DNA from: Actinomadura luteofluorescens
GTDB lineage: Bacteria; Actinomycetota; Actinomycetes; Streptosporangiales; Streptosporangiaceae
DNA: 64,000 nt
Assembly (NCBI RefSeq): GCF_013409365.1
Contig: NZ_JACCBA010000001.1
Span: 5,518,001 to 5,582,000, forward strand
Direction: 5' to 3'
In this document: positions 27,958 through 31,684 of the stretch, piece by piece
How the letters are laid out: the number at the start of each line of letters is the position of its first letter
Position numbering within the stretch: the stretch's first letter is position 1
The notes under the pieces: generated by a model
Database searches by the model: none
The model's input: the letters and a program-made list of their open reading frames with translations, nothing else
What the model was told of the DNA's origin: nothing
Made by a program: the position numbers and the translations under genes

Positions 27958-27987
27958 CCGGGTGGGGCCCGCGCCGGCCCCACCCGG
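27958..27987 (-). terminator. Perfect 12-bp hairpin after the coiled-coil gene
   Basis: Arms ccgggtggggcc (27958-27969) and ggccccacccgg (27976-27987) with a 6-base loop, eight bases past the stop at 27995. A second, weaker hairpin (27904-27911 with 27920-27927) follows in the same gap. Confidence 0.8.
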
Positions 27988-27994
27988 ACGCTCG

Positions 27995-29644
27995 TCAGTC
28001 CTTGGCCTCGCGGCGGGGACGCAGCAGCGCCTCGGCGAGCGCGAGCATCGTCTCCTCCAGGGTGGACAGCCGCTTCAGGACGTCCTCGTGCACCGCGTTG
28101 ACCTGCTTGGACACATCGTCGTGGACACCGTCCATCTTCCGGCCGACCTCGTCCTCGACGTGGGAGAAGCGCTTGACGAAGTCGGCCGCCGCCGCGTCGG
28201 CGCGGCGCGCGGCCTCGTCCTGCATGGTCTCCACCTTCCGCGCGAATTCGGCCTGGACGCCGCCGACCTGGCGCGCGACGTCCTCCTGCATGGTCCCGAC
28301 CTGCTTGGCGACGTCGTCGTGGATGCTGCCGACCTGGCGCGTGACGTCCTCGTGGATGTCGCCGATCCGCTTGCCGAAGTCGTGGTGGACGCCGCTGACC
28401 TGACGCGACACCTCGCTGTGCACGGACTCGACCTGCTTGGCGACGTCGGCGTGCACCGACTCGACCCGGCGGGAGACGATGTCGACCTGGGTGGTGAACT
28501 CCTCCAGCGCTCCGTCGACCCGCTTGGTGACCTCCTCGTGGATGGTCTCGATGCGCTTGCGGACGTCGTCGTGCACGTCCTCGAACCTGCGGGAGAACTC
28601 GTCCATGCGCTTGGCGACGTCGCTGTAGGCGGTCTCGGCGATCTGCGACATGGTGGCCTTGACCTCGTCGCGGTCCGGCCGGGCGCGCAGCTCCTCGATC
28701 AGCGGGTCGACGGCCTCGGCCAGGTGCTTCTCCAGCGCGTCGAACCGGTCGCCGTACTCGGCCGCCGGGCGCTGCGCGAGCTCGGCCAGCAGCCGGTGCA
28801 CCTCGGCGATCTCCAGGGTGGCGGGCAGCCGGTTGATCCGCTCGCCGAGCCCGTCGAGGCGGCCGTCGACGCTCTCGAACCGGCCGTCCAGCCCGCCGAG
28901 CTTGCCCGACACCCCTTCGAGGCGGCCGTCGACGCCGTCCAGCCGCCCGTCGAGGCCGTCGAGGCGGCCGCCGACGCCCTCGACCCGGCCGTTGACCGCC
29001 TCGAGGCCCTGCTCCATCCGCTCGGCCATCTCGCCGAGCGCCTGGTCGACCCGCGACGTGACCCCGTTGACCGAGTGTTCGAGCCGCTCGGACCGGTGCC
29101 CGAGCTCGGCGAGCGACTTGTCGAGCCGGTTGAAGCGGACGGACGCGGCCTCCATGCTGCCCTGGAGCTTGTCCAGCCGCTTGGTCATCTCGTCCATGCG
29201 CTGCGACGCCTGCTGCGTGGCGTCGGTGATCTGCTGCGCGGAGTCGAGGACGGCCTGGATGCGGGTCAGGCCCTCGTCGACGTTCTCGGCCACCACGCCG
29301 ACGTCGGCCCACAGCGCCGGCAGTTCGGCGACGGGCTTGACCCGCTCGCCGAACGCCTCGATGTGCTCGGCCAGGCCCTCGGCCCATTCAGGGGGCTTGC
29401 CGGACAGGTCGTCGACCTGCCCTCGGACGCTCTCGATCTGCCCGGTCAGCCCGGTGAGCTCCCGCTCCCGGACCTCGCGGAGAAGCCACTCCATGCCTTC
29501 CAGGCGCTGGCGGATCTCGTCGAGGACCTGCCCCTGTGAGCGCTGTTCGTAGACGTGGTCCTGCGCCGCACGGGCGAGCAACTCCCGCATCCGATCCGAG
29601 ACCGGTTGACCCCCCGTCTGCAGGAAGTTGTGATTCGTTTCCAC
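27995..29644 (-). CDS. Long coiled-coil repeat protein (apolipoprotein-like amphipathic repeats), function unknown
   Basis: 549-aa protein with no signal peptide or transmembrane helix. After a ~60-residue head (RMRELLARAAQDHVYEQRSQ) nearly the whole chain is helical and heptad-patterned. Residues about 210-290 are short repeats of the form GRLDGLDGRLDGVDGR; residues about 350-530 are repeats of 11-15 residues built on VHxDVxKQV and IHEDVTRQV. The composition is charged, with no cysteine and little proline. The pattern resembles apolipoprotein/DUF-type amphipathic repeats and bacterial filament or scaffold proteins, but I recognise no family. GTG 29644 is chosen for gaaggag at 29651-29657; an in-frame GTG at 29710 lacks one. 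A cytoskeletal or nucleoid-associated role is only a guess. Confidence 0.78.
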   Translation of the reverse strand: METNHNFLQTGGQPVSDRMRELLARAAQDHVYEQRSQGQVLDEIRQRLEGMEWLLREVRERELTGLTGQIESVRGQVDDLSGKPPEWAEGLAEHIEAFGERVKPVAELPALWADVGVVAENVDEGLTRIQAVLDSAQQITDATQQASQRMDEMTKRLDKLQGSMEAASVRFNRLDKSLAELGHRSERLEHSVNGVTSRVDQALGEMAERMEQGLEAVNGRVEGVGGRLDGLDGRLDGVDGRLEGVSGKLGGLDGRFESVDGRLDGLGERINRLPATLEIAEVHRLLAELAQRPAAEYGDRFDALEKHLAEAVDPLIEELRARPDRDEVKATMSQIAETAYSDVAKRMDEFSRRFEDVHDDVRKRIETIHEEVTKRVDGALEEFTTQVDIVSRRVESVHADVAKQVESVHSEVSRQVSGVHHDFGKRIGDIHEDVTRQVGSIHDDVAKQVGTMQEDVARQVGGVQAEFARKVETMQDEAARRADAAAADFVKRFSHVEDEVGRKMDGVHDDVSKQVNAVHEDVLKRLSTLEETMLALAEALLRPRREAKD

Positions 29645-30306
29645 CCGATGCTCCTTCGTGTGCCGGCGCGACGAAATGACGCACGGCAAATGAATCTCTG
29701 GAGTGGCCACTGTAGTGCGTGTAGAGCGTGGCTAAAACGGGTAGCAGAGAAGATTGCGAGTTCTGCGGAATGCGCCTGTTATCCGACTAGGTGGAATAGC
29801 GAGATACCGCCGAATGCATGGCAGGTTACGCGCTTTGCGGTCATTGCCCTTCTTGGGGGGATAGAGGGGGTGGACGCCGGCGGGCGGTGCGGGACGGGTC
29901 CGGCGTTCCGGGTGCCGTTCTGTCCGTACATCTCGTCCAACATCGGCAGTTCCCGAACCGCGCGGGCGGCTACGGCGGCCCGACGCGTGTGCGGCGGACG
30001 TCATGCGGCGGGGCGCCTTCCCGGCCTTTTCGGGAGGGCTTTTGGGGAGCCGGTGGCCCGCCCGGTGAACCTGTCTTGGTGTTCTCGCGCCGGTTGATCT
30101 CGCCGCGCCGATTTTCGCGCCGCGCCGCGCCCTTGCCGGGCGGCCGCAATCCCTGGTGCGCGCAATGCCGGAATGCGGCGATGATTTGCACCGCCGTGGC
30201 GCGTCGCCCCCTCCCGCTTGGCGTTGCGCCGCCGACTGGAAGATCTTTGGGCAGGGTTGCCGGACGGCGCCCGTTCCGGGCGGGTCAGGCCCCGCCGGCC
30301 GGCCGG
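29645..30306. other. 662-bp intergenic region, no convincing gene
   Basis: Lies between the start of the coiled-coil gene and the end of the methyltransferase gene, both on the minus strand. The first ~200 bases are clearly less GC-rich than the surroundings and should hold the promoter of the coiled-coil gene; several frames are open over 60-180 codons but show neither codon bias, ribosome binding sites nor family motifs. I see no RNA gene in it. Confidence 0.5.
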
Positions 30307-31657: not shown

Positions 31658-31684
31658 TTGGCACTCTCAAGGGTAGAGTGCCAA
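31658..31684. promoter_or_regulatory. CIRCE operator (HrcA binding site)
   Basis: TTGGCACTC-N9-GAGTGCCAA: a perfect 9-bp inverted repeat at 31658-31666 and 31676-31684. It differs from the classic CIRCE (TTAGCACTC-N9-GAGTGCTAA) only by a symmetric A-to-G change in each arm. It overlaps the start of transcription of groES-groEL, so HrcA should repress the operon until heat shock. Confidence 0.95.

Follow-up and report, generated by a model that had tools for sequence, protein, structure and literature searches.

The 64,000-nucleotide stretch of Actinomadura luteofluorescens DNA analysed here (hereafter the window) carries on its minus strand, at 27995..29644, a coding sequence for a 549 aa coiled-coil protein of head-rod-tail layout, which begins with a GTG start at 29644 and ends with a stop at 27995-27997. 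The open reading frame of 549 residues put forward in an earlier sequence-only reading is borne out: the gene is present as a single copy in its own genome (9.62 Mb, one contig), and an overall dN/dS of 0.27, computed on the 29 genes out of 38 whose length is exactly 549 codons, indicates purifying selection. A THUMP-like methyltransferase gene (PF18096) lies upstream and is followed by groES-groEL, tsaB-rimI-tsaD occupy the other side, and a phosphotransferase gene (PF01636) is found downstream; the names tsaB, rimI, tsaD, groES and groEL are assigned from the look of their sequences. groEL falls inside the stretch examined (14-20 kb) at 20/20 family loci, and the methyltransferase is directly upstream on the same strand at 18/20 by map, or at 17/19 when adjacency is measured on 18 of the 20 mapped family loci together with the window; in genome G391, the rod gene adjoins groES and not the methyltransferase. 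No neighbour hints at the function of the rod protein; groESL, the methyltransferase and tsaD all appear to serve housekeeping. The single CIRCE-type inverted repeat found in the window, TTGGCACTC-N9-GAGTGCCAA at 31658-31684, stands upstream of groES and is that of groES, for which HrcA control of the ordinary kind is expected. Neither tRNAs nor RNA families at gathering scores were found across the 64-kb window.

The 662-bp gap reported upstream of the gene is present at 29645-30306, and its gene-proximal ~140 bp (29645..29784, minus strand) are strongly conserved in an alignment of 18 of 37 loci with the window. This block includes an AAGGAG ribosome-binding site (29651-29656), ending 6 nt ahead of the GTG, and probably contains the promoter. 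Several further blocks of DNA conserved in Actinomadura are seen within the gap, one of which, at about 29920-29943 on the minus strand, reads ATGTTGGACGAGATGTACGGACAG. A block able to start the peptide MLDEMYG is kept within two mismatches in 30/36 sequences, but the reading frame past it is not conserved; a hidden small ORF was accordingly rejected, and the block is probably a regulatory site. Beyond the stop codon, a stem scan located a terminator-like hairpin with a 12-bp perfect stem and a 6-nt loop (27958..27987, minus). The gene had been credited with a strong terminator of its own, and the stem is indeed there; its stability, however, is ordinary for its base composition (z -1.19, with 23/200 shuffles equally stable), and a terminator scan that requires a T-run does not list it. 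A perfect stem of at least 10 bp lies within 90 nt of the stop in 22/37 sequences (the window and 36 of 37 loci), and the scan found none in the other 15.

Two classes of repeat had been proposed for the protein, and both are confirmed by comparison with 10,000 shuffles: lag-7 identity over residues 201-300 is 0.31 (shuffle mean 0.10, maximum 0.25), and lag-11 identity over residues 326-549 is 0.277 (mean 0.079, maximum 0.164). The description of nearly the whole chain as heptad-patterned does not hold, since four windows covering residues 81-288 give a best hydrophobic period of 3.46-3.56 and four covering 321-528 one of 3.64-3.68, making the C-terminal 40% hendecad. The heptads include a Gly-rich array (residues about 217-272; 28829..28996, minus) recognised by its lag-7 identity, by DNA tandem repeats of 21/63 nt and by 7-aa indels at 225, 232 and 261; read off the sequence, its register g-a-b-c-d-e-f is R/K-L-D/E-G-L/V-D-G. 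A linker follows (residues 273-335; 28640..28828, minus), in which alignments reveal a conserved RPDR with a near-invariant P323-R325; its dN/dS, 0.38, is the highest of any zone.

The hendecad array spans residues 355-526 (28067..28582, minus) and is defined by its table of units, its period of 3.64-3.68, DNA tandem repeats of 33/66 nt and 11-aa indels at 394, 420 and 441. Its repeats had been given as 11-15 residues long; instead, each of the 15 units counts exactly 11, and two units of 7 residues accompany them, the first inside the array (388-394) and the second just ahead of it (348-354). The consensus is E/G-x-V-H-x-D/E-V-x-K/R-Q/R-V. At the core positions 3, 7 and 11, V/I/F/L/M predominate and Ala fills 106/1305 cells (29 genes); these three rank with the best-conserved positions (major residue 0.94-0.98), as do the basic or polar positions 9 and 10 (0.96-0.97). 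Charge is distributed in a regular pattern, acidic at 5-6 and basic or Gln at 9-10, and the hydrophobic positions, 3 of 11, line up in a single narrow stripe with His/Gln on one side and Gln/Arg on the other. The Scy-type superrepeat has 51 residues; a repeat of this length was considered for the rod protein and rejected, lag-51 identity being an unremarkable 0.076.

Most of the invariant columns in alignments of 20 and 83 sequences sit at the two ends; the proteins combine a head of ~110 aa and a tail (RL..LEETMLALAEALLRP), both near invariant, with a variable rod in between. In the window protein, the head covers residues 1-115 (29300..29644, minus) and reads SDRMRELLARAAQDHVYEQR...EGMEWLLREVRERE...PPEWAEGLAEHIE...AELPALWADVG, and the tail covers residues 527-549 (27998..28066, minus; STLEETMLALAEALLRPRREAKD), of which 529-543 are near invariant among 83 sequences. 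Across the 29 ungapped Actinomadura genes, dN/dS is 0.18 in the head, 0.29 over residues 116-200, 0.22 in the heptads, 0.38 in the linker, 0.32 in the hendecads and 0.12 in the tail. Of 38 Actinomadura and Spirillospora sequences (37 loci and the window), 29 are 549 aa long, and the other nine show 13 gaps relative to the window: four of 7 aa (68, 225, 232 and 261), three of 11 aa (394, 420 and 441) and six of 1 aa. Thus, among these close relatives, 7-residue indels fall in the heptad zone in 3/4 cases and 11-residue indels in the hendecad zone in 3/3, and by such unit-wise changes the coiled-coil register is kept while length is free.

More widely, 1513 pairs of relatives at 70% identity or above, which are not independent of one another, yield 571 distinct rod gaps, the commonest lengths being 7 (119) and 11 (101), then 3 (43) and 1 (37). 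Gaps of up to 30 residues are sums of sevens and elevens in 278/436 cases and are not in 158/436, so together with the 1- and 3-residue gaps they indicate that the register is not absolute; gaps above 30 residues are nearly always such sums by arithmetic and carry little weight. Total length ranges about fourfold, from 226 to about 900 aa. At the short extreme, the proteins of genomes G422 and G435, counted from the homologous start, measure only about 226 aa (210 residues when counted from DRMR) and retain both head and tail; at the long extreme, L108 has 881 residues from DRMR to its end.

A loose motif count gives 12 hendecad units in the window protein, 0 to 12 in Actinomadura, 8-11 in Actinocorallia, 2-3 in Actinoallomurus and 0 in the named Sphaerisporangium, Acrocarpospora, Nonomuraea, Streptosporangium, Planobispora and Allonocardiopsis proteins. 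Speaking against a clean split, the array-less proteins P0062, P0103 and P0064 each have at least one 66-residue window with a strong 3.667 period, and such proteins may have other hendecad stretches. When the 11-mer just before the tail was scored in 50 readable array-less relatives against a profile built from the remaining 14 units of the window protein, it ranked first of all 11-mers in 15/50 and among the top three in 21/50; its score was zero or below in 8/50, and its worst rank was 55. As array-less relatives carry a similar unit beside the tail, the array looks like an in-place amplification of one ancestral unit at that position, a direction suggested by the likeness of the units.

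The statement that the protein belongs to no characterised family holds in substance, as no curated model spans it. Pfam matches above cut-off are Baculo_PEP_C (51.3/38 bits), DUF1664 (46/34.6) and HSBP1 (43.3/28.6), and NCBIfam adds the LA_3659 family at 49 bits against 36 (residues 91-216); their best stretches span 65, 68, 24 and 126 of 549 residues, respectively, all within the coiled coil. From one relative to the next the set of models of this sort keeps changing, and the four matches are read as probable coiled-coil cross-hits. A Pfam search with the head alone gave nothing under E 0.3 (DUF6744). The sequence-only reading had named a full-length match to a chemoreceptor-like or phage tail protein as what would overturn it; none was found. 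The best PDB sequence match is to a chemoreceptor (E 0.0048), limited to residues 91-273, and chemoreceptor membership was rejected given the lack of a membrane helix and of a full-length match. The absence of a membrane helix (highest 19-residue hydropathy 0.91) and of a signal peptide (none seen by eye) agrees with what had been noted previously.

AlphaFold2 predicts long helices only for the window protein (83 sequences; mean pLDDT 72.8, pTM 0.28), with the Gly-rich heptads at a low-confidence pLDDT of about 50, and gives a like picture for a 352-aa relative (38 sequences; pLDDT 72.2, pTM 0.28); neither model displays a compact domain. As monomers with a pTM of 0.28, the models are silent on assembly. 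When the low-pTM monomer model of the window protein was run against the PDB, Foldseek returned no match, which is expected for a low-confidence, all-helical monomer.

A protein search recovered 268 proteins at E 1e-3 or below among 7991 scored, and the named organisms among the best 120 of the 268 are Streptosporangiales genera or Streptosporangiales/Streptosporangiaceae MAGs. The 37 loci in named genomes all belong to Actinomadura or Spirillospora, with A. mexicana nearest (97% identity). The N-terminal 110 aa find a counterpart in 208/250 sampled genomes of the GTDB family of the host (197/219 of those of good quality) and in 32/296 genomes sampled from the class. A 47-aa head profile (A2) matches 44/296 class genomes and a 24-aa tail profile (A3) 43/296, where G070, G086 and the window match by construction because they contributed rows to both. 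The two profiles coincide in 41 genomes, 28 within the family and 13 outside it; in G206, head and tail lie on separate contigs. Outside the family, G022, G061 and G249 match the head profile only and G109 and G120 the tail profile only, the G061 head match being false as it falls inside tsaD. Two family genomes, G296 and G332, have two head matches each. Keyword searches of the literature, made by terms other than locus tag or accession, found no study of this rod family, and the single paper that paired Streptosporangiales with a coiled-coil protein concerned DivIVA-like proteins in the text accessible. By these searches and the names of the relatives, the family looks unstudied.

The 13 remote relatives with both ends come from genomes of 2.6-4.1 Mb, and many have an additional acidic/Pro-rich stretch that closes with a basic-aromatic motif. 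Among L119-L129 and L132-L133, many end in RRPWWRPGD, RRRWFSR or similar after an acidic, disordered-looking stretch, and this end is perhaps a membrane or partner anchor. Their neighbours at 13 loci include a LeuA-dimer-like gene at 10, a ThiF-rhodanese gene at 12 and a gene that we take to be Ku at 7, with Pfam covering the L119 copies only. The LeuA-dimer-like feature occupies the second half of a 216-265-aa protein beside the remote relatives (L119:5823-6473 and L067:560-1357); in the L119 neighbour, the PF08502 match is 23.5 bits against a cut-off of 24.9.

The head is unmatched in 42/250 family genomes, and 13 of these, retested with three positives, were again negative in all 13 cases. 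Five of the 13 head-less loci were read. In G299, G305 and G323, tsaD directly adjoins the methyltransferase with 58-89 bp between them, leaving no room for the rod gene; in G482, of the same genus, the upstream block, the start region and a scattered remnant persist when read by eye; in G304, the neighbourhood differs. The gene is thus dispensable at least in those relatives from whose loci it is absent, and some relatives that lack it look complete as genomes. In G305, a few kb past tsaD and the methyltransferase, six small ORFs (87-165 aa) with similar ends stand in a row (L159:12372-15817), several of which begin like secreted proteins (MLKKFLVAG...).

The architecture of the family is one of fixed ends and a variable rod that gains and loses whole heptads and hendecads. 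We consider it about an even call that the protein is a cytoplasmic, homo-oligomeric coiled-coil rod that binds at both ends and serves as a spacer or scaffold. In such an arrangement, the ~110-aa head and ~23-aa tail would bind each other's neighbours or other partners, the rod would keep them apart, and rods might join end to end into filaments. Their conservation marks the ends as putative binding modules. In the heptads, Arg at position g would face Asp at position e, which suggests an oligomer in parallel register, and more than two chains are suggested in the hendecad part by cores of V/I/F instead of Ala, following the argument, in the available portion of the source, that an Ala-rich core denotes a dimer such as FilP and other cores more chains (PMC9858780). 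The cytoplasm is the likely location, given that no membrane helix or signal was seen. Of the structural element in hyphae suggested beforehand, the structural or scaffolding part fits best, but the restriction to hyphae is unsupported, with remote relatives occurring in genomes of 2.6-4.1 Mb.

Filament formation proper would make the protein an intermediate-filament-like cytoskeletal element, its rods associating both lengthwise and laterally into a stiffening network, as those of FilP do, without being FilP, which we regard as possible but rather unlikely. Bacterial candidates for this class were selected, in the accessible part of the source, by a coiled-coil rod of >80 aa without signal, membrane or enzyme domain, and the three such proteins tested, each a FilP-family member, assembled into filaments in vitro (PMC2680258). 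The window protein has a coiled coil of >80 aa and no signal, membrane segment or enzyme domain, where the rod was judged by heptad/hendecad periodicity instead of COILS and the signal by eye, and its repeating charge pattern would allow staggered side-by-side packing. The roughly fourfold variation in length would be unexpected if filament geometry mattered, however, and the genome already holds two FilP-like genes. A place at the hyphal tip or septum as a member of the DivIVA/FilP/Scy/PolyDIV superfamily itself is the least credible reading, and membership is refuted: the defining motif, GY[DN]xx[QE]V[DN], is missing from 111/111 family sequences scanned, the window protein containing no GY anywhere, and the best BLASTP match to four DivIVA-like proteins of the same genome has an E of only 0.53. 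A PF05103 search of that genome found 7 places in 5 frames, the rod gene not among them; four of the frames carry GYD or GYN motifs, and the fifth, L137, carries none and was left out of the BLASTP. Judged by motif, the four look like one DivIVA, one PolyDIV-like and two FilP-like proteins; L141 (at about 2.14 Mb) is a 189-aa frame with three GYD-type motifs and apparently encodes a PolyDIV-like protein. The hendecad array also has 8.7% Ala, against 17-28% in 8/10 windows of the FilP-like L136. What speaks for membership is the length of the rod and its order of heptads first and hendecads second, which FilP also has, and DivIVA, FilP and Scy share one origin, in a superfamily defined by the above N-terminal motif ahead of a dimeric heptad coil (PMC9858780, as far as accessible).

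The 11-residue amphipathic repeats recall apolipoproteins and the actinobacterial lipid-droplet protein MLDS, and a lipid- or vesicle-surface binder was among the earlier suggestions; PF01442 scores 88.9 bits, just below its gathering cut-off of 90, and apolipoproteins A-I and A-IV are weak PDB matches (E 0.02-0.05). This option is weak and was set aside as quite improbable, owing to the sub-threshold score and the narrow hydrophobic helix face, only 3 of 11 positions between His/Gln and Gln/Arg. Its periodicity means that the heptad half could hardly lie flat on a membrane, many relatives keep head and tail without any 11-residue array, and the Lys-rich C-terminal PAKKA region, through which MLDS binds DNA according to the available text (PMC5504291), is missing. 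Similarly improbable is a co-chaperone or adaptor serving the neighbouring chaperonin or methyltransferase, which would explain the place by groES-groEL and the near-constancy of both neighbours at the 20 family loci. At 13 loci of remote relatives that share these ends, the neighbours are different ones, the G391 gene adjoins groES and not the methyltransferase, and the rod gene has its own conserved upstream block, the one CIRCE found belonging to groES.

Long coiled-coil proteins give actinobacterial cells shape and organisation; the rod-protein family described here is separate from DivIVA/FilP/Scy, widely conserved and traceable by two defined end motifs. Somewhat more tentatively than the spacer role itself, we propose a scaffold family unrelated to DivIVA/FilP, in which the ends stay fixed and each lineage sets the spacing by whole heptads and hendecads. 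If so, nature would provide a graded set of rods that share their ends and measure some 30 to 130 nm (at 1.5 A per residue), and in one lineage a nearly straight hendecad section would have been built by amplifying a single ancestral unit beside the tail, and this length series would permit a direct test of whether rod length matters to function.

In comparison with known systems, crescentin-type and other rod-domain proteins likewise have a coiled-coil rod of >80 aa without membrane or enzyme domain, to the extent that the source describes them (PMC2680258), but the rod protein is made of two tandem arrays of similar units. Apolipoproteins A1/A4/E (PF01442) and MLDS-type proteins share the 11-residue amphipathic helical units, and the rod protein differs in falling under the Pfam cut-off, in a stripe judged too narrow and in having no PAKKA tail. 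FilP and Scy, as portrayed in the accessible text, are also actinobacterial long rods with heptads then hendecads, flanked by head and tail and varying greatly in length (PMC9858780); unlike them, the rod protein has no GYDxxEVD motif and an unrelated head, its hendecad cores are V/I/F-rich and not Ala-rich, and its genome encodes FilP-like genes separately. The same ends are found in the actinobacterial L067, L068 and their kin, with the head SPMSxRMQxLLSRAVEDQLSEQR and the tail HVDEAVLALAEALLRRR; the rods read in that group have no such arrays, the gene neighbourhood is different, and many carry an extra acidic/Pro-rich stretch with an ending such as RRPWWRPGD.
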